Under the pieces are notes generated by a model. It ran no database searches, was not told where the DNA came from, and saw only the letters and a list, made by a program, of their open reading frames with translations. Shown one piece after another: positions 15,607-24,766 of a stretch of 36,337 nucleotides of DNA; within the stretch, counting starts at the first letter, position 1; every line of letters starts with the position of its first letter. Location: positions 1 through 36,337 of the IMG/VR virus record IMGVR_UViG_3300020442_000237; one strand, given 5' to 3'. Made by a program: the position numbers and the translations under genes. The DNA comes from a virus.

Positions 15607-17070
15607 TTAGTCTAAATGTGTTTTAAAGTTATCGTGTGATGCATGACCATGATCTTGCATCTTAAGTTTGTCTTGTGGCTTGCCGCTCATATATTTTTTA
15701 AGGAATTTATGTGCGTGATTTACAGAAACTTTATGTTTCTTTCCATCTTTAAATGTAACACCACCATGTTTATCACCTTGGTCTAGAACTCCTCTTAATT
15801 GTGATACAATGTGAGCCGGACCTTTGTTCTCAGAACCATCATGCTTTGATTTACCTGGTTTAGGATCTTTCTTAGGTTGTGCCATACCCTTAGTTGCGTC
15901 TTTAGACTTCATGTCTCTCATCGCGTCTTCTCTGGCACCTTCTAAAACTTCTCTATAGGCTTCTTTCATAGTCTTTTTCTTACCCATAGCCTTTTTAATA
16001 GCTTTGTCCCTAGAACCCATGTACTCATCTTTACCTGATTCTATTTTACCATCGCCATCGTGATCGTGTGTTGCCATTTTAGATTCGTTAGCTTGTCTAA
16101 GAGCCTTACTTGCTTCTGGAGTATCTCCTAAGCCTTTCTTGATCTTTTCCATTTTCTTATAAGCGCCTGTCATGTCGCCGCCTTTATGTCTTTTATCAAA
16201 AGCAATACCCTTCGCCATTTTAATTTGTTTCTTAGAATATGTTGCTTCGTCAACTTGTTTGAATAGTTGTGATTTTAAACTTAAAGGAACGTCACGAACA
16301 TTGTCTACGCCCTGATTAGCAAGTGCACGTTCTAAGTTATGTTGATAAAGTTCGTTAAACTCTTTAAGCTGTTCTTTTAGGCCTGCTTTTTCCTTTTCTT
16401 TCCTTACATCTTTTGTAAGTTCTCCAGGAATACCTCTTGCTGACTTAGCAGCTCTAGCGAAACGTCTTTCCATCTTGGATCTATCTTCTTCGTCTTCGTC
16501 TAGTTTAGCTTTGCCATCTTGAGGTTCGCACATTTTACCAACTTCAGGTGTTTCTGAACCGCCTTGTTTAGGGGATTCTTTATCACCTTCTTCTTTATCT
16601 GCTGGTCTGTTACCTATAGCTTCTTGAACTTTACCGCCTGATTTGGTTTGTCCGTCGTCTACTTCTACCATTTTATCGCCTTTGGCATTTTTAGATGAAC
16701 CGTTTTTCTTGACCTTTTTGTCTCGTTTTTCCTCGGACTCATCTTTTGTGCCATCGTAAACGACTACATCTTTATCTTCTGCCACTTCTCTCTCCTCGGT
16801 TTGATATTTTGTCTTTTGTGTATGTAACCTGGCACGGTTATAAGTGATATCGTCTCCGAATTGGAATCCCATCATCTTATCTAACAGTTTACTTAGGGCT
16901 TCTCTTTCATAAGGTGTTAAAATTTTACCCATTTTAATATTGGATAAAGCCCTATGAAGAATAGGAAGTTGCCTGGCTGGCAACATACCTTGCCTAATGA
17001 GTTTATCGAGACGTTGATTTCTTGTCTCTAGCTCTAATAAGTATTCTAAGTTTTCTGTTATATTGTCCAT
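15607..17070 (-). CDS. Large charged virion-associated protein with EF-hand-like loop
   Basis: The first 90 residues form an ordered helical domain (NLEYLLELETRNQRLDKLIRQGM, then LTPYEREALSKLLDKMMGFQFGDD). The rest is highly charged and probably disordered, rich in K, D, E and G. A calcium-type loop, HDHDGDGKIESGKDEY, lies near residue 330 followed by DKAIKKAMGKKKTMKEAYREVL. Such DGDGKIE modules recur in marine T4-like virion proteins. The start is backed by a GGAAAG site and a TATAAATA late promoter 20 nt upstream, the best late-promoter context in the window. Function is unknown beyond late expression. Confidence 0.8.
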   Translation of the reverse strand: MDNITENLEYLLELETRNQRLDKLIRQGMLPARQLPILHRALSNIKMGKILTPYEREALSKLLDKMMGFQFGDDITYNRARLHTQKTKYQTEEREVAEDKDVVVYDGTKDESEEKRDKKVKKNGSSKNAKGDKMVEVDDGQTKSGGKVQEAIGNRPADKEEGDKESPKQGGSETPEVGKMCEPQDGKAKLDEDEEDRSKMERRFARAAKSARGIPGELTKDVRKEKEKAGLKEQLKEFNELYQHNLERALANQGVDNVRDVPLSLKSQLFKQVDEATYSKKQIKMAKGIAFDKRHKGGDMTGAYKKMEKIKKGLGDTPEASKALRQANESKMATHDHDGDGKIESGKDEYMGSRDKAIKKAMGKKKTMKEAYREVLEGAREDAMRDMKSKDATKGMAQPKKDPKPGKSKHDGSENKGPAHIVSQLRGVLDQGDKHGGVTFKDGKKHKVSVNHAHKFLKKYMSGKPQDKLKMQDHGHASHDNFKTHLD

Positions 17071-17090
17071 AGTTAATACTTCTTTCCATG

Positions 17091-17098
17091 TATTTATA
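17091..17098 (-). promoter_or_regulatory. T4-type late promoter TATAAATA
   Basis: An exact octamer in the 53-bp gap between the 17124-17972 gene and the 487-aa virion-type gene, 20 nt before its ATG with GGAAAG in the leader. A TTTTGGTC word (17113-17120) and a TCTAG-TGT-CTAGA inverted repeat (17102-17114) lie just upstream of the box. Confidence 0.82.
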
Positions 17099-17123
17099 TA
17101 ATCTAGACACTAGAGACCAAAAT

Positions 17124-17972
17124 TTATATACCTAAATGCTGATATATTGTTTCTGTATATTCGTCGTGAGATGCTTGTCCTGGATGAGAACTATCACAAA
17201 TCGCATGATCTTGAAACTCCCATAAGGGTAAACATATTTCTGGATATTTTTGTTTCATAGCAAAGTATATTAGAGTGTCCCAGGAGCCTAATACAAGTTT
17301 TATTTTCTTATCTACTGCTATACGAACTATAGAATCTATATATTGCATTAAAAATAGTTGTAATGGTACACCTTCTTTACCTTGTTTTATATCCTCATGG
17401 AGTTCATTATACTCTCTTTTGTCTAAATTACCTAGTAATTGTACCCATTCGGGTGTGTGAGGTAAAACATTCGTTAATGCTGTTAAAACTTTAAACTGCT
17501 GGTCTCTAATACTAACCATTTTAGCAGAGGGAAATGCCATAATTACTGTGTCTAAGTCTAACAGTTCTGTAACTGCTATAAACTTTTTATATAAGACTAG
17601 GATGTTTGTAGCACAAGTACCAAAATTTAAGACACTATAATTAGGCGGAAGTTTGTTTTGTAGTCTACTGGCAAACGGAAACTCTACTCCTGCTCCAAAG
17701 GCATCAGAGGAGCCTAGTATTGCTATCTTTTTATCTGCTTGTAAATTAAATTTATCTCGGTGATTGTATTCATTTATGGAATAGGACCATTCATAATCTT
17801 CCCAGCCATATAAATTTTGATAATCACCTGCTTGTTTGAAATGCCTAATAACACCAAAGGGTATAATATCTTCTAATGTTTTTAGTTTAAAAGGATCTTT
17901 TTTGAGTAATGAATTTGTTTCTAATGTAACTGTTCTTAACGAATCAAGTTGCCGTTGTTCTGGCGTCAACAT
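17124..17972 (-). CDS. SGNH-type hydrolase-like protein, 282 aa
   Basis: Block I reads ILGSSDAFGAG (G87, S88, S89), followed by SVLNFGTCATN as the block II region. The end has D260 and H263 in DSSHPGQASH, giving a plausible Ser-Asp-His triad. The GSSDAFGAG form differs from classical GDSL. The neighbours on both sides are late virion-type genes, so this copy may act on the particle or host surface, for example by deacylating a surface glycan during attachment or release; that is inference. The upstream gene ends 3 nt from its ATG. Confidence 0.7.
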   Translation of the reverse strand: MLTPEQRQLDSLRTVTLETNSLLKKDPFKLKTLEDIIPFGVIRHFKQAGDYQNLYGWEDYEWSYSINEYNHRDKFNLQADKKIAILGSSDAFGAGVEFPFASRLQNKLPPNYSVLNFGTCATNILVLYKKFIAVTELLDLDTVIMAFPSAKMVSIRDQQFKVLTALTNVLPHTPEWVQLLGNLDKREYNELHEDIKQGKEGVPLQLFLMQYIDSIVRIAVDKKIKLVLGSWDTLIYFAMKQKYPEICLPLWEFQDHAICDSSHPGQASHDEYTETIYQHLGI

Positions 17973-17975
17973 AAT

Positions 17976-19421
17976 TTAACCTACTGAATAACTAAATGCC
18001 TTATATGCTTTTGTCCCCATGTTGTTTGGTTTCTTAGGAGTAAACTTTTTAGGCTTCTTAGGTTTCGCTACTTTTGCCGCTCCCTTTGCCTTAAACTTTT
18101 TAGCAGTTTGTTTCTTTGCTATAGGTTTAGCCATTTTAAACTTCTTACTTCTGGAAGCTGCTTGTTTACCTCTTTTTGTTAGACGTGCTATTTCGTTCTT
18201 TCTCATTTGAGGAAGTAATTTAACTGATATACGACTAACCAATGGTTGGAATCGTTGTATCATTCTTTCTAAACGTCCTTTCTCTGCGGGCGGTAAACTA
18301 GATCTGTCTCTACCCCTTAGAAGTCTTTTATATACCATTAGACGAGCACCACGTACAGCCCTACGTTTTAGTCTATCTGGAGTAGAACCCCTTCTCATTG
18401 CTATACGTCTTGCTACTTTTAATTTTTGTTTATTACGTTTCGCTGCAAAACGTCTTTTAAGTCTACCCTGTACGGATAATGCCTCAGTAATTTCTATCTC
18501 ATGGTCATCAAAAGGATCTTTATCCCCATCGTAGTCCTCATATTCTAATTCGTCCTGATCATACAATCCTAATGCTATTGCGTCATCAAATGTAAACTCT
18601 AATGCTTGTTTTTCTAACTCCTGTACATCTTTGTCATCAATATAAAAAGAGCCTTCTTTACCCACCATGATTTCATCTATATCAGGTGCCTCGTTTTTAT
18701 TATCAATAGGATATTCGTGTTTGGATTTTTCTGCAGGAGCCATTTCCTCAGTTGTATATGCAGGATTAAAAGGAACCTTTACAGGTTTAATTGTAGTTTT
18801 ATTACCTTTTAAGTCTCTTCTTTTAGGTTCTTGTCCAGGTGTAAGTTTTCTATAATAGTCGTCACCTTTATCTGTACCCCATTCCATACCGCCTGGAGTA
18901 GCATCATATTCTTTTGTTTCTTTAACACAATTAGGAACAATTCTATTACCTTTCTTTTTCATTCCTTTTTGTGTATAACCTTGCCAACACTTTTCCTGTA
19001 TTCTACGGACAAGTTCCTCTTTCTGTGTTTTTACATTGATTGGTTTATTACCTGTGCCTGGTCTATCTACACTAGGGTCTTTTGCTCTTTTTCTTCTTGC
19101 TGCTGAGGCTCTGTCTTTTTTATCCATGCTGTGTGCTTTAGAACGTGGCATACATTTAGGTTTACCCTCTCCTGGTTCTCTGGCGCATTGCCCTTTAATT
19201 TTTCCGTCTGTTCCTACACGAACCCAATCGCCTTTTTTGCCTTTACCAAACCAATCTTTGAGGCTCTCTCCAAAATCTTCTATGGATTCTTTATTGTGAT
19301 GCATATTTAATTTCCAATGTGCTAAATTCTTGGCACCTTTACTACTGTTAGGATTTGAACGTATCTTTTTTAGTTCTGCCTTAGTAGCGTCTTTAGAAAT
19401 ACCGTGTCTATCTATCGCCAT
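17976..19421 (-). CDS. Mosaic basic virion-type protein, 481 aa
   Basis: Several small modules are joined. Residues 1-45 are a short helical module (GISKDATKAELKKIRSNP). Residues 63-130 form a cysteine/glycine segment (KGDWVRVGTDGKIKGQC, then PKCMPRSKAHSMDKKDRASAARR) of the DUF6321 type found in marine T4-like phages. Residues 140-168 hold a CWQGYTQKGMKKKGNRIVPNC module. An acidic middle region follows, then an arginine-rich helical domain (SVQGRLKRRFAAKRNKQKL to LPQMRKNEIARL) and a lysine tail. The mosaic structure suggests a head-internal or DNA-associated virion protein. Its start overlaps the frameshifted end of the next upstream gene by 14 nt. Confidence 0.75.
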   Translation of the reverse strand: MAIDRHGISKDATKAELKKIRSNPNSSKGAKNLAHWKLNMHHNKESIEDFGESLKDWFGKGKKGDWVRVGTDGKIKGQCAREPGEGKPKCMPRSKAHSMDKKDRASAARRKRAKDPSVDRPGTGNKPINVKTQKEELVRRIQEKCWQGYTQKGMKKKGNRIVPNCVKETKEYDATPGGMEWGTDKGDDYYRKLTPGQEPKRRDLKGNKTTIKPVKVPFNPAYTTEEMAPAEKSKHEYPIDNKNEAPDIDEIMVGKEGSFYIDDKDVQELEKQALEFTFDDAIALGLYDQDELEYEDYDGDKDPFDDHEIEITEALSVQGRLKRRFAAKRNKQKLKVARRIAMRRGSTPDRLKRRAVRGARLMVYKRLLRGRDRSSLPPAEKGRLERMIQRFQPLVSRISVKLLPQMRKNEIARLTKRGKQAASRSKKFKMAKPIAKKQTAKKFKAKGAAKVAKPKKPKKFTPKKPNNMGTKAYKAFSYSVG

Positions 19422-19564
19422 TGTAATCTTTCCATGCCGTTGCGTATGCTATAGACTTTTCTTTGTCTGTAAGTTTGCCGTCTTTAGCATAGTTCTTTTT
19501 AATATGCTTAATCATTCGCTCATGCTTTGCGCTAGGTGGAGCTACTTCGTCAATCTTTTTTTTT
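19408..19564 (-). other. Probable -1 frameshift site (A9) and C-terminal extension
   Basis: The 19542-21074 gene reads into a run of nine A (19556-19564) and then stops at 19542. In the -1 frame the reading continues for 48 codons after the A-run and ends at a TAG at 19408-19410, inside the start of the next gene. The extra tail includes APPSAKHERM, then IKHIKKNYAKDG and SIAYATAWK, which resembles tails of marine T4-like virion proteins. It has no good start of its own: a TAA lies just upstream in that frame, and the only ATG (19515) has no ribosome site. Either programmed slippage at A-AAA-AAA or a homopolymer error in the sequence explains it. Confidence 0.65.
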
Positions 19565-21074
19565 GCATCTGTTTCATTCTTTTACGAATGTTATCTCCAG
19601 ATACAGGATTTGAATAGATTCCTTTACCCGCTTTCATTTGTTTTTTCTGATGGTCGACGTATTGTTGACCAGCTTGTTGTAAAGTATCTTTTACTCTACC
19701 TACTCCTCGTTTAACTAAATTAGCGATGCTTTCGTCTAAGTCTAAATTAGTAACAATTTGCTTTTGTTCGGACCAATCTTTTCTGACATATTCCTTACCA
19801 CCAGGACCTATATCAGTTACTTTTGTTTTGATAGGTTTGTTTGTTTTAATCTTTAACAATCTTTTCTTTTCTGCTGCGTCTGTTGCAAGTCTTTTCATTG
19901 CACCCTCACTTCTTACAGGAGGATTTGTCATTGATGCTTTGTTCTTTTTATTCCAATTAGCCTTATATTCTGGTGTTTGTCTTTCAGGATACTTCTTCCT
20001 TGTTTTAGGATTCTCAGCATCAGGATGTCCTTTCTGAATAGCAAATGCTATACCTGTAGGACCTCTTCCTTTTTCGTAATTTTCTTTCTGTACGCCTTTA
20101 CCTTTAGACATTGCTAAACCTTTACCACGCTGTTGTAGTTTATCTCTGTCGCTGTGTTGTTTGTTGTACTGTTTATCTGATGTGTACCCTTGGTGATAAG
20201 CATTTTCTATATCTTGTCTACTAGGTGTTGTCTTTTTAAGATCTGAATATTGTTTACCTGCTTTCTTTTGGTAACTAGAAATAGTTTTTGGTGATAATTC
20301 TTGTAACTCTACTTCCTCTTTAGCGACTTTTTTCCAACCACCGCCTCTCTTTTTATACCATTGTACTGCCCAGCCATTAGCATAAGCACTTGGATAAACA
20401 TCAAATTTAGATCTTGCTGCTGCCTTTGCTTTCGACCACAATCCAGGATTTGTAGGTTTGTTTTCTTCTTTTAGGCCTGCTCTCGCTTTTGCCATACCCT
20501 TACGTCTTTTCAAAGTGTCTTTGTCATATTTGTCATCAACAAATTTTTTGTTCATGCCACTGAATGTACCGGGAGTCTTTTTATTACTCCTATCCATTTG
20601 CCTTTGAAGATAGTCTCTCATATGCTCTTTACCTGAGACGTCTTTTCCTGCCTTAGCAATATATCTTTTCTTAAGGGCATCTGAGATTTCAAATATACTT
20701 TGTTCTTTCATTTCTTTTTTACCACCTTTACCGTAAGTTATACAAGGATCTTGTCCACAACCACAGTTCTTTTTCTCTTCCTCAACCTTTTTAGTCTCAG
20801 GATTATCGTGATCGTAACCTTGTTTATTTAATCTATCATGATCTTCTTTTTTCTTGGCCCAAACTTTTTTATCACCTTTGTACATCCAATGAGCTTTGTA
20901 TTCTTCTTTTTCCTCTTCAAATGTCTTTTTAACGTAATCAGGCATTTTCATAAAACCAGTTTTCATAGCCTTTTCGTTTTCTTTTTTACGTTGTTTTAAT
21001 AGATTGCTGGAAACAGGTTTCTTTAATGGTCTACCTGATGCTAAATCTTCTCTGAATGTAGTAAAGTTTTTCAT
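19542..21074 (-). CDS. Mosaic virion-type protein with DUF5872-like domain
   Basis: The 510-residue zero-frame product is lysine-rich. It has a CGCGQDPC cysteine cluster near residue 105, a DYLQRQMDRSNKK segment near 155 and a DUF5872-type domain at 207-250 (NPGLWSKAKAAARSKFDVYPS, then YANGWAVQWYKKRGGGW). A LSPKTISSYQKKAGKQYSDL module lies at about 260-280 and disordered basic regions follow. These modules recur in different combinations in marine T4-like virion proteins. The annotated end is probably not the natural end, because a -1 shift at A9 would add 48 residues and join the next gene by overlap. The start abuts the 2OG-oxygenase-like gene. Confidence 0.75.
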   Translation of the reverse strand: MKNFTTFREDLASGRPLKKPVSSNLLKQRKKENEKAMKTGFMKMPDYVKKTFEEEKEEYKAHWMYKGDKKVWAKKKEDHDRLNKQGYDHDNPETKKVEEEKKNCGCGQDPCITYGKGGKKEMKEQSIFEISDALKKRYIAKAGKDVSGKEHMRDYLQRQMDRSNKKTPGTFSGMNKKFVDDKYDKDTLKRRKGMAKARAGLKEENKPTNPGLWSKAKAAARSKFDVYPSAYANGWAVQWYKKRGGGWKKVAKEEVELQELSPKTISSYQKKAGKQYSDLKKTTPSRQDIENAYHQGYTSDKQYNKQHSDRDKLQQRGKGLAMSKGKGVQKENYEKGRGPTGIAFAIQKGHPDAENPKTRKKYPERQTPEYKANWNKKNKASMTNPPVRSEGAMKRLATDAAEKKRLLKIKTNKPIKTKVTDIGPGGKEYVRKDWSEQKQIVTNLDLDESIANLVKRGVGRVKDTLQQAGQQYVDHQKKQMKAGKGIYSNPVSGDNIRKRMKQMQKKRLTK

Positions 21075-21605
21075 TTATGCCAATAACTCCTCGTTCTTGT
21101 GTAGTTCATAAAGTGCTTCAATTGACTCTTGAAACCATACTTGAACTGCTATTCTTCTAGTTCCGTTGTTTTTAAGACCATGTCTTATTTGTGTATTTAT
21201 AAAATATGCAGAGTTGATAGGAGTTTCAGACTTAATCCAATCTTCCTCATGATATTTTACTCCTTTTAAATGTAAGTAACCACCATAATCTTTCCAAAAC
21301 AATGTAGGGGCAAAGTTATCTGTGATAGGAAATACTAAGGGTGTTGAACGTGCTTTTAGTGCGTCTGTATGTGGTGGTGTATATCCATCAGGCATATTCA
21401 TATGCAATTTAATGGATGTTGGTTGGATTTTAAATAAATCTGCTAAAGGTTTTGTTACTTCTTCAGGCAAGTGCATATAATATAAGTTATGATCTGCCTT
21501 GCCATTAGCGCCTGGATGAGCTATATATTCTTCTTTTAAATTTAGAAAAGTTTGTTTTTGTTCTTTTGATAGCTCTAGTGGAATATCAAAATAGTAAGGT
21601 AACAT
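21075..21605 (-). CDS. 2OG-Fe(II) oxygenase-like protein
   Basis: The 176-aa protein has an HxD pair (H79, D81 in PPHTDALKARST), a distal H142 (TQIRHGLKNNGTRRIAV) and R150/R151 a few residues later. This is the facial triad plus arginine expected of a 2-oxoglutarate-dependent oxygenase with a double-stranded beta-helix. MPDGYTPPHTD followed by STPLVFPIT also recalls aspartyl/asparaginyl hydroxylase-like cupins. The substrate could be a protein residue or small molecule. It sits among late genes, directly before the mosaic gene (next base) and 5 nt after the lipoprotein gene. Confidence 0.7.
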   Translation of the reverse strand: MLPYYFDIPLELSKEQKQTFLNLKEEYIAHPGANGKADHNLYYMHLPEEVTKPLADLFKIQPTSIKLHMNMPDGYTPPHTDALKARSTPLVFPITDNFAPTLFWKDYGGYLHLKGVKYHEEDWIKSETPINSAYFINTQIRHGLKNNGTRRIAVQVWFQESIEALYELHKNEELLA

Positions 21606-21610
21606 TTTAC

Positions 21611-22099
21611 CTACTGTTTCTTTTCTATCGCAACGCCGACGCCTTTATCTCCGTTAGGCATAGTCACTTCTCTATAATATATAATGACTTCACCTAATTC
21701 TCTAATATAACGTCTAAGTTCCTGCATATTAGCAGACATTGCCTCATAATCACCGATTGTTGTAGCAACAAATACTACTTTCCCACCGTTTTGTTCACGC
21801 ATATCATCCATAAATCTGTCTAAATATGTGTAACCTTCAGGCCAATCATTCTCTTTACCTAGAGAACAATCACGTTTCCCTTCTTCGTTCTTTAAACATG
21901 GGTTAGCTATTTTTGCTTCTGAGACAACATACCATTTAGGTTCTATTAGATTAATATCCCTAGGTAGGCTGGGTTGCATAATATCTATTTGTACGGGCTT
22001 TGTAACTACCTGTACTTTCTTTGTTCCTAAACCAAAACTAGCGCAACCGCTAATCAGGGTTGTTAGGATTGCTAAGGTTGCTAAGTTCCTTACTATCAT
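21611..22099 (-). CDS. Outer-membrane lipoprotein, probable o-spanin (Rz1-like)
   Basis: The N-terminus MIVRNLATLAILTTLISGC is a lipoprotein signal peptide with lipobox I16-S17-G18-C19, so the mature protein should be lipidated at C19 and sorted to the outer membrane. It starts inside the end of the membrane-anchored coiled-coil gene at 22050-22433, in a different frame. This overlap is typical of Rz/Rz1 spanin pairs, which fuse inner and outer membranes at lysis. At 162 aa it is longer than classical Rz1 and has a folded-looking domain (KVVFVATTIGDYEAMSANMQ), so it may do more than bridge membranes. Late expression is expected from its position. Confidence 0.7.
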   Translation of the reverse strand: MIVRNLATLAILTTLISGCASFGLGTKKVQVVTKPVQIDIMQPSLPRDINLIEPKWYVVSEAKIANPCLKNEEGKRDCSLGKENDWPEGYTYLDRFMDDMREQNGGKVVFVATTIGDYEAMSANMQELRRYIRELGEVIIYYREVTMPNGDKGVGVAIEKKQ

Positions 22100-22433
22100 T
22101 TTCTATATCTCCAAATACAGCTGCTGTGCCTTTATTTATTCGACTTTCTATAAGTCCAGGTTTAGCTTCTGCTAATTTATTTAAGTTATGCCTTCTAAAT
22201 ATATCTAAATACTCTGCTTTTTCCGCTTCAATTTGAGCATTTTTGTTTTGTAAATTTAAAAGTGCAGTCCCTTGCTTTTCAAAACTCTCTTTCATTGCTT
22301 CCATTGCAAGTTGTTGTTCCTGTACGGCAAGTTCTAATTTTGCCTGATTCTCAATGAGCGTTTCACGTTCATTCCATAACCAATATGTTGCTCCACCGAG
22401 AACTAATATTAATACTAAAAATATCTGTTGCAT
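22050..22433 (-). CDS. Inner-membrane coiled-coil protein, probable i-spanin (Rz-like)
   Basis: The 127-aa protein has an N-terminal membrane segment (IFLVLILVLGGATYWLW), then a glutamate/glutamine-rich coiled coil to about residue 75 and a soluble end with AKPGLIESRINKGTAAVFGDIE. This is the topology of an i-spanin: one membrane helix with a periplasmic coiled coil. The partner lipoprotein gene overlaps its 3' end by 50 nt in another frame. Proteins ending in the KPGLIESRIN-type segment occur in marine T4-like phages beside such lipoproteins. Its ATG shares one base with the stop region of the 22433-22696 gene. Confidence 0.7.
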   Translation of the reverse strand: MQQIFLVLILVLGGATYWLWNERETLIENQAKLELAVQEQQLAMEAMKESFEKQGTALLNLQNKNAQIEAEKAEYLDIFRRHNLNKLAEAKPGLIESRINKGTAAVFGDIENDSKELSNLSNPNNPD

Positions 22434-22696
22434 TATAAGTAATCCTCTATTATGTAGTTCAAACCTGTTGAAGATCTAAACTCAATTTTGTTATTATCCT
22501 CGTCAATAAAAATTAATAACTTTTCTTTTCTAGTTATAATTTTCTTGGCAATATAGTTTTTATCATCACTATCGCCATATACTTTATTGAAAGATACAGT
22601 AACTTTATACCGTGTAATGAATAGGGAAAGTATCCATTCCCACATTCTTTTGAGGCCGTTAATTATACCTCTTCCTATTTTCTTCAGCAATTCCAT
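22433..22696 (-). CDS. Small protein with amphipathic/membrane N-terminus
   Basis: The 87-aa protein has an N-terminal segment, LKKIGRGIINGLKRMWEWILSLFITRYKVTV, that alternates basic and aromatic residues and could insert in or lie on a membrane. It is followed by two beta-like segments (NYIAKKIITRKEKLLIFIDEDNNKIEF). No family recognised. Its place directly before the spanin pair makes a lysis or membrane role worth testing, but it lacks the clean helices of a holin. It overlaps the adenylyltransferase-like gene by 13 nt. Confidence 0.6.
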   Translation of the reverse strand: MELLKKIGRGIINGLKRMWEWILSLFITRYKVTVSFNKVYGDSDDKNYIAKKIITRKEKLLIFIDEDNNKIEFRSSTGLNYIIEDYL

Positions 22697-23541
22697 CTAC
22701 GTCTAGCTGCCTTGCCCCTCTCACCTGTCCATCCTCTAGACCTTGCACAAAATGACTTACGTCTTTTGGCTGCTTTACTACCTGGCTTTAGTTTACTAGG
22801 CGGTGTTGTTACTGCTGTTTTTAATTTACTTCCAGGATTTGCTCTACGATGTGCAGCTACACCTTTTGCTGTAAGTCCAGCGCCATCTTCAGTAGGCCTT
22901 TTATGCCCCTTTGCATCATCTCCTGTTTTGTTTGGTTTGTCGTCCTCTGATAAGAACTCCATAAAAGTTTGCATGGTTGACTCCTGTAACCCTTGTTTCG
23001 TTGCGTCAAATAACTTTCTCGCATGGTCATCGTTGTGGTTAGGGTGTAATCCAGCTTTGAAAGACTTATAATCATTATTAGTAGCATGAGCTCTCATTTT
23101 AGTACCACTTATACCTGCGACACCTTCAGCATCTGGGTCTCTATGTCCTGCTGAAATAACTCGTATCTTTTTATAATTATATTCTTTCCCATTATATTTT
23201 GCGGAAAGTTGTTGAAATTGTTTTACCCTGTCACTACCAACTACCATTGTTGCGTGTGTATGTCCTTCCTGATTAAACTTTTTAAGTTGTGCTAGAAAGT
23301 GAGGGTGTTCTTTTGTAGAATGTGTAAAGTTTACCTCAGGATGCACATGCTGTAGGTATTCTTTTTTGTGATTATGGTGTAAAGGATCTTTTTTCTTGTT
23401 TTGTGAATGACTAACCACAACGGCATGATTGGCTCCAATCTCTTTAGCATGAGAATGAACCTTATCAATAACCTTAGAGTGTCCAGCAGTTGGAGGATTC
23501 ATCCTACCAAATGAGAATACTATGTGTTTATCTTCTGCCAT
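22684..23541 (-). CDS. HxGH-type nucleotidyltransferase fused to DUF6321-like tail
   Basis: Residues 8-30 (VFSFGRMNPPTAGH) carry a TxGH form of the HxGH nucleotide-binding motif, and ISGTKMR at 144-150 matches the ISxTxxR loop; both mark the adenylyl/cytidylyltransferase superfamily. After residue 190 a basic linker leads to a C-terminal cysteine module (SFCARSRGWTGERGKAARRRWNC) of the type seen in other virion-type proteins here and in marine T4-like phages. The fusion suggests an enzyme carried in the particle or bound to DNA; that is inference. The ATG has no Shine-Dalgarno and lies 6 nt after the stop of the 16-residue cysteine peptide, so its translation is probably coupled. Confidence 0.8.
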   Translation of the reverse strand: MAEDKHIVFSFGRMNPPTAGHSKVIDKVHSHAKEIGANHAVVVSHSQNKKKDPLHHNHKKEYLQHVHPEVNFTHSTKEHPHFLAQLKKFNQEGHTHATMVVGSDRVKQFQQLSAKYNGKEYNYKKIRVISAGHRDPDAEGVAGISGTKMRAHATNNDYKSFKAGLHPNHNDDHARKLFDATKQGLQESTMQTFMEFLSEDDKPNKTGDDAKGHKRPTEDGAGLTAKGVAAHRRANPGSKLKTAVTTPPSKLKPGSKAAKRRKSFCARSRGWTGERGKAARRRWNC

Positions 23542-23547
23542 AATTAA

Positions 23548-23598
23548 TTATCCGCAACAAGTGCAAGAGCAACATTCACAACATTTACATTTACTCAT
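23548..23598 (-). CDS. 16-residue cysteine-rich micropeptide
   Basis: The reading frame encodes MSKCKCCECCSCTCCG and then TAA. Eight of 16 residues are cysteine, arranged as CxCC, CC, CxCC. It has an ideal AAGGAG ribosome site 6 nt before the ATG, better than most genes nearby, and lies in the gap between the ligase-like gene and the adenylyltransferase-like gene. The next gene starts 6 nt after its stop and lacks a ribosome site. It could be a metal- or thiol-binding peptide, or a leader that couples or senses translation. No family is claimed. Confidence 0.7.
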   Translation of the reverse strand: MSKCKCCECCSCTCCG

Positions 23599-23608
23599 GT
23601 CTTTCTCC

Positions 23609-24766
23609 TTATTTGTTATCCTTGTTAAAATTAAGAGCACTAAACTCTTTTCTATCTACAAATTTAGAAGGCCTGCCGTTTCTAATAGCAACAAATCCTT
23701 CTGGTTTAACTGTTTGACCATCTACTTCATGTCCGAACTCTGAGCGCTGTGACATTGTCTTTGTTAGTATGTCCTTTGCTGCTTGAAGATGTTTGTGCAT
23801 CTCCATAGGTCCTGTAAAGTGGTCCTTATTCTTATTTATATGTCCTATAGTGTTATCCATAGTAGTTTGATGACGCTGTTTTGCTGCGTCCGTTTTAACT
23901 TTATCTATCTTTTTCTGATGTGCTGCACTATGATGTGCTACAAAACCTTCGTGAGAATGCTGTTCTCCTGTTCTTACAGTATGGTTAATATATGTTTTTA
24001 ATGCCTGATGATGTTGTAAAACTGTATCGTGATGTTCATCAGGTGTATTTTTAAAATGTTGTACTGCCTGATCCAAGTGATGTTCTACTTGTTTTCTGTC
24101 TTCTTGTGTATAATGATGCTGTGAAGTATCGTGGTGTGTACTCATCATATGAACATCTGGATGGCTAGCAAAGTGGGACATATCAGCTCCATGTACTGCT
24201 TTCATATCCTTAATTGTTTTACCTTCGTATTGTGTATGTACAGCAAGTCCTAATTTGGATTTCATTGCTGCTTTACCATGTTCTGAATCGTGTGGTACAT
24301 GATAAGTTATCGTATTAGGTGTAAATTCTACTCTATTACCATTTTTCTTGACATCACCTGCGTGCATAATATCTGCCTGATATACACCTTGTGGTTTTAT
24401 TTTGTGTGCATGATCTAATGCCGCTTTTAATTTTTCTACTAAACCTGGTGCATGTCCATGATTCTTTTCTATGTCCTCGTGCGTATGGTTAATTTTAGGG
24501 TTTTTATTGAATGCTGATTTGGATGCTACAAAAAACTTTTTATTCTCAGGGTGTTCCCCAAATACAACAGCGGGACTGCCATCGTATTTTATTGTAGTCT
24601 GTGTATCTGATTTAATGCCTTGAAGTTTGTGATGAACGTCTCTGACTGTATGGAAAGCATGTCCAAAACCTTCTTTACCAGCATGCAAGACATGATCTTC
24701 TACGTGTTCTAGATGTTTTAGTTTATCTTCTTCTGTGGCTTCTGTTAAAAAATCTTTAAATCGCAT
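23609..24766 (-). CDS. Ligase-like nucleotidyltransferase (DUF6267-type)
   Basis: The features of the covalent nucleotidyltransferase (DNA/RNA ligase) superfamily are present in order: motif I K60-Y-D-G (TIKYDGSPAVVFG), a motif III-like strand VYQADIMHAG (128-137), motif IV EGFV (356-359) and motif V KFVDRKEF (368-375). The region between III and IV is a long histidine-rich helical insert. This matches a family of marine T4-like phages that I recall as DUF6267. K60 would be the residue that becomes adenylylated; the substrate (nick, RNA end or protein) is unknown. It is preceded by both an early and a late promoter. Confidence 0.8.
   Translation of the reverse strand: MRFKDFLTEATEEDKLKHLEHVEDHVLHAGKEGFGHAFHTVRDVHHKLQGIKSDTQTTIKYDGSPAVVFGEHPENKKFFVASKSAFNKNPKINHTHEDIEKNHGHAPGLVEKLKAALDHAHKIKPQGVYQADIMHAGDVKKNGNRVEFTPNTITYHVPHDSEHGKAAMKSKLGLAVHTQYEGKTIKDMKAVHGADMSHFASHPDVHMMSTHHDTSQHHYTQEDRKQVEHHLDQAVQHFKNTPDEHHDTVLQHHQALKTYINHTVRTGEQHSHEGFVAHHSAAHQKKIDKVKTDAAKQRHQTTMDNTIGHINKNKDHFTGPMEMHKHLQAAKDILTKTMSQRSEFGHEVDGQTVKPEGFVAIRNGRPSKFVDRKEFSALNFNKDNK

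Follow-up and report, generated by a model that had tools for sequence, protein, structure and literature searches.

A conserved run of nine adenines as a probable recoding site at the end of a modular protein in marine T4-like viruses

A run of nine adenines (A9) close to the end of a gene for a lysine-rich modular protein very likely acts as a recoding site in the viral DNA examined here, an IMG/VR virus record of 36,337 bases whose entire length we refer to as the window. Specifically, recoding at this run would yield two forms of the protein, one of 510 aa and one of about 555 aa. Most transcripts or ribosomes would pass A9 in the zero frame and terminate 11 nt downstream, which yields the 510-aa form, while a fraction of the mRNA would gain one A through slippage of RNA polymerase, or the ribosome would slip back one base on A AAA AAA. 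In either case the shifted reading would add 49 codons, so that the longer protein would end in a conserved two-helix module. The two frames, the missing start, the conserved run and the selection on the −1 frame are read directly from the sequences; slippage itself, together with its rate, the machine responsible and the role of the longer form, is what we infer.

The junction in the window

The window contains several T4-like genes (a DnaB-like replicative helicase, a UvsX-like recombinase, a primase, a ribonucleotide reductase and a cytidyltransferase-like gene), and every gene discussed here lies on the minus strand. The features of the junction are as follows.

19542 to 21074, minus strand: gene U, a 510-aa lysine-rich modular protein, the zero-frame (short) product
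19556 to 19564, minus strand: the A9 slippery run, CAA AAA AAA AGA, with the in-phase heptamer A AAA AAA at 19563-19557
19542 to 19544, minus strand: the zero-frame stop TAG of U, 11 nt past A9
19408 to 19557, minus strand: tail T, 49 new −1 codons (19557-19411) and a TAG (19410-19408)
17976 to 19421, minus strand: gene D, the next gene, 481 aa, whose own ATG (19421-19419) lies inside the end of T

The minus strand reads CGT AAA AGA ATG AAA CAG ATG CAA AAA AAA AGA TTG ACG AAG TAG across the junction, and in the −1 frame the reading past A9 is AAG ATT GAC GAA GTA GCT CCA and onward. The open frame of T extends 6 codons upstream of A9 and, in the window, holds no ATG, GTG or TTG ahead of its conserved part; the first ATG in T is internal (HER-M-IKH). 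At its other end, the stop of T sits 14 nt inside gene D. A preliminary description of this DNA had proposed a programmed −1 frameshift into a tail, and a programmed change of frame is supported, as A9, its phase and the missing start are conserved and the −1 frame is selected in relatives. It was likewise right that T has no usable start, that it terminates within the start of the next gene and that the slippery heptamer lies in zero-frame phase. The 510-aa frame does not end right after the run, as had been stated, since its stop is 11 nt beyond; the −1 continuation is there, with 49 codons instead of the 48 first counted; and of the two run lengths said to make one continuous frame, A10 would do so (as would A7), whereas A8 meets GAT TGA.

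Gene U has the cytidyltransferase-like gene, D and others as neighbours. We found no Pfam or NCBIfam family for it, and the single PHROG family that it matched significantly has no assigned function, so that the earlier term "virion-type" is without direct support. T4-type internal head proteins carry an N-terminal capsid targeting sequence and are cleaved by the prohead protease; the N-terminus of U (MKNFTTF) looks like T4 targeting peptides, as judged by eye only. Given this resemblance and its modular, lysine-rich make-up, our guess is that U may be an internal protein packaged in the head of a T4-like virus, with a short and a long form. The stretch of the window from 15607 to 24766 (minus strand) is a block of modular, lysine-rich proteins in which short modules recur across genes and viruses.

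Conservation of the run and selection on both frames

The run with its −1 continuation is present in five lineages: the window, L001, L006/7/8, L089/90 and L131. Conservation of the run, which the preliminary description had proposed as a check, is borne out by four diverged relatives, and the modules on both sides of A9 differ among the five lineages. L001 is an 82-kb contig whose U homologue has 865 aa (41% in the best segment against U, residues 1-334 being matched); behind its A9, T lies in the −1 frame with no start and also ends within the start of D. In L006/7/8 the run stands behind a different U. These contigs, recovered from three metagenomes, share at least 99.7% identity; we counted them as one lineage, and the three metagenomes serve as an assembly check as well. 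The locus is complete in L007 and L008, and there T runs on in the −1 frame through D; in L089/90 and L131 the −1 frame past A9 comprises 498 and 449 codons, D included. D is in the −1 frame behind A9, with no intervening stop, in L007, L089 and L131, and L131 shares with L089 a conserved stretch located past A9 and ahead of the first ATG of D.

The length of the run is constant: it is nine in all lineages of the U–T junction that carry it, and we found no A10 there. The A9 lineages have A AAA AAA as an in-phase heptamer, and L001 additionally offers A AAA AAG. Relatives without the run had been named beforehand as evidence against recoding, and there is one, L086, which the D tree places as sister to L001 and in which T starts at its own ATG behind TAAGG. 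The A9 lineages group with L086 in that tree, apart from L087, L095 and L097, and A9 is probably, as read from these sequences, one ancestral site retained in five of six lineages and not the result of five origins. That exactly nine adenines were kept although synonymous sites are near or at saturation suggests selection on the run.

The coding sequence on either side of the shift points the same way. In the T frame, dS is 1.16 and dN 0.09 between the window and L001 (dN/dS 0.08), and between the window and L007 synonymous sites are saturated with dN at 0.14; judged by these substitutions, the T frame is under purifying selection. In L001, the 14 zero-frame codons past A9 correspond to the C-terminal end of the protein of L086 (VAIKGSQIKNKSTY vs VPIKNAEIKNKSTY), with 6 synonymous and 4 replacement codon changes, whereas in the other two frames every differing codon is a replacement. 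Over this short stretch the zero frame past A9 therefore looks selected in L001, suggesting that the short product is wanted as well. By these comparisons, both products, short and long, seem real.

These observations bear on two explanations that involve no recoding. The first is that the run is an assembly error or a recent inactivating indel and that the true sequence is one continuous gene; homopolymers are indeed error-prone, and a related gene has A10 in frame in L010 and A11 in L017. It is very unlikely nonetheless, in view of the identical A9 and −1 continuation in five lineages (one of them recovered from three metagenomes), the lack of any A10 at the U–T junction and the conserved zero frame past A9 in L001; as for sequencing error proper, the same A9 in relatives led us to reject it. 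The second is phase variation, in which the run would change length during DNA replication and turn T on or off between virus particles. Elsewhere in related genes (L010, L011, L017 and L128), junction runs of 9, 10 and 11 do occur, but at the U–T junction the length is 9 in all run-bearing lineages and both frames look selected, and we regard phase variation as improbable.

It is informative to set the run against the composition of the genome. A9 is the sole A-run of at least 8 in the window, where a dinucleotide shuffle gives 13.6 expected A8 matches and a synonymous codon shuffle of 52 coding sequences gives 12.2 expected runs of at least 8, with none of 500 shuffles showing one run or fewer. 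A single run against about 12 expected indicates that the virus avoids such runs, and its one run is a frame junction. The junction A9 is also the only A-run of at least 8 in the L001 contig; the contigs of the window, L001, L089 and L131 have no further run of at least 9, and that of L007 has one more. Among the fetched loci, 8 of 13 distinct runs of at least 9 are frame junctions, as against 1 of 32 A8 runs (Fisher p = 5e-5), a sample of longer runs that was partly collected by A-run patterns, with L089, L131, L011, L017 and L128 not found via their junction run.

Two further observations concern A-runs more generally. Runs of 5 or more are at every length scarcer in the whole window than in codon shuffles (for at least 7, 7 observed vs 34.7). 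The second A9 of L007 (L007:4630-4638, plus strand) lies 630 nt past the junction run, in frame inside D; the 16-mer CAAAAAAAAAGATTAG is common to it and the junction run, and slipping there would lead to a stop within 4 to 11 codons.

Slippage by polymerase or ribosome

Runs of A9 and A11 are known transcriptional slippage sites (PMC3711429, PMC4256274), and two features expected of such a site are found here: a run of at least eight A (or T) at the junction, and conservation of the site, in this case in five lineages. A mixture of A-run lengths in the mRNA would be expected as well. Of the elements of a ribosomal −1 signal, the window has the in-phase X XXY YYZ heptamer and lacks the downstream stem. 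No stem follows A9 in the window (z +0.7 to +1.1) or in L001 (z above 0) by a scan for stem-loops. Weak structures do follow the run in L007, L089 and L131, with z down to about −2.5, making a ribosomal stimulator possible there. In addition, three more contigs carry A-run junctions in related modular genes: L011 has A9 with a −1 continuation, and L017 and L128 have A11 with a +1 continuation, which −1 ribosomal slippage cannot produce. The bare A9, the lack of structure in the window and L001, and the A11/+1 junctions lead us to favour the polymerase slightly over the ribosome, given that recoding takes place; transcriptional slippage alone has about an even chance of being the whole explanation. 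The gene of L017 with the broken frame at A11 (L017:2427) is the same gene as that with A10 in frame in L010 (L010:2139).

Ribosomal −1 frameshifting at A AAA AAA, with no slippage of the polymerase, would produce the same two proteins and is a credible if less probable account. It can draw on the in-phase heptamer of the A9 lineages, on the A AAA AAG that L001 also offers and on relatives that carry T behind A AAA AAG, a spacer and a stem (group B, below). Set against it are the missing stem-loop past A9 in the window and L001, the lack of an upstream Shine-Dalgarno-like stimulator as judged by eye, the retention of nine adenines where seven would suffice, and the A11/+1 cousins.

Group B comprises eight further contigs in which the upstream frame ends NNA AAA AAG TAT (or TCT) TGA and T is in the −1 frame. 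They were found by the pattern AAAAAA[AG] before T, and the invariance of their heptamer is therefore partly built in, which is not the case for its phase or for the stem. The codon in front of the lysines encodes G, P, V, A or E, and its third base is always A. A 6-nt spacer precedes a stem of up to 9 bp or more, with predicted stabilities from −11.9 to −17.8 kcal/mol; L133 alters both sides of the stem and retains it, and the stems of L134 and L125 are imperfect. By its layout of heptamer, spacer and stem, the group B junction is a classical ribosomal −1 frameshift signal.

It is also worth considering that T may be translated alone once U has terminated, through re-initiation or a non-standard start. 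In cyanophage isolates T forms a gene of its own that has a start; it heads its own gene in L010, L020 and L086, and in group B a TTG overlaps the zero-frame TGA, so that re-initiation is possible there. However, in the window, L001 and L007 no ATG, GTG or TTG precedes the conserved EVAPP in the open T frame, the sole ATG is internal, and the residues ahead of it are conserved as protein and not as codons. An own start for T was rejected, as none is present, and separate translation by the other routes appears unlikely; recoding at A9 is the better reading.

The cultured cyanophage S-H9-2 (L148) merits mention as a candidate frameshift in a culturable phage. Its upstream gene ends A AAA AAG TAA about 107 nt before the T motif, and its T gene lies in the −1 frame with its own ATG further on.

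The module and comparable systems

T belongs to the family phrog_30733 (E 1e-11), whose function is not assigned. Hundreds of viral contigs contain it, most often as an in-frame part of a larger protein or as its own gene. It is predicted to form a two-helix hairpin (pLDDT 85). Fold searches gave no match below E 3 in the PDB, and among viral models the significant matches were to its own family, for example proteins of S-RSM4 and S-WAM2. There was no Pfam or NCBIfam match, and a Pfam search did not reproduce the DUF6321 label on the Sf-CH11 copy. No relatives of T were found in bacterial genome contigs, and pattern searches for A8 before T returned no contigs beyond those already found. A Glu before the module is conserved in 79 of 80 copies; the L/I-x-E consensus of prohead protease cleavage is present in only 28 of the 80.

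Slippage at poly-A is known from Thermus dnaX (A9), Citrobacter rodentium tssM (A11) and Shigella spa13 (PMC3711429, PMC4256274, PMC5009743). As at those sites, the run described here comes just before a stop, would give a short and an extended product and needs no structure, and the spa13 extension likewise stops within the first codons of the gene that follows (PMC5009743). In contrast to these three, the present case is in a T4-like virus, its extension is an exchangeable module and its slippage is predicted from sequence. Ribosomal frameshifting of the dnaX type (A AAA AAG with a stem) is matched by the group B relatives, with their heptamer, 6-nt spacer and stem, but not by the window, which has A AAA AAA and no stem.

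Among phages, coat proteins are extended by frameshift with Ig-like domains, a mobile module that different phages attach through a −1 shift, a +1 shift or a fusion in frame (PMC5009743). T resembles these in being a mobile module added by whichever frame device is at hand, and differs in its A-run site, its non-coat partner and its predicted fold; an Ig-like frameshift extension was rejected because T is predicted as two helices rather than a beta fold. The G-T tail-assembly frameshift of long-tailed dsDNA phages is similar in that it too shifts the frame by −1 close to where a phage gene ends. Unlike at G-T, no match to a chaperone family was found, and no tape-measure gene was found adjoining U or D (phrog_12506, a tape measure, matched only at E 0.17); with no homology found, a tail-assembly chaperone was rejected. 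T4 is itself named as an exception without the G-T tail frameshift (PMC5009743). The T4-like Campylobacter phage CPt10 has a poly-A frame break in a methyltransferase gene, for which slippage was proposed (PMC2853527); the likeness is that of a poly-A frame break in a T4-like phage, although CPt10 is a single case with no conservation shown, unlike the U–T junction. We found no earlier report of this junction in the open-access literature, which does not prove that there is none.

We hesitate to generalize and do so tentatively, at somewhat less than even confidence: in marine T4-like viruses, slippage at A-runs may be a general joint for shuffled protein modules. Under this proposal, and no more firmly, A9 or A11 runs that are otherwise avoided would join out-of-frame modules at module borders and provide two forms of the protein. 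With the same reserve, relatives would rely instead on a classical ribosomal signal, a separate start codon for the module or fusion in frame. If recoding at A9 does take place, gene finders have cut these proteins short and missed a tail, and in L007, L089 and L131 the product of gene D would be made in fused form as well. The junction would add a case of recoding to the T4-like viruses, T4 itself being described as lacking the usual tail frameshift, and it offers a natural comparison set for the expression of one module, by A9, by A11, by A AAA AAG with a stem, from its own ATG and in frame.
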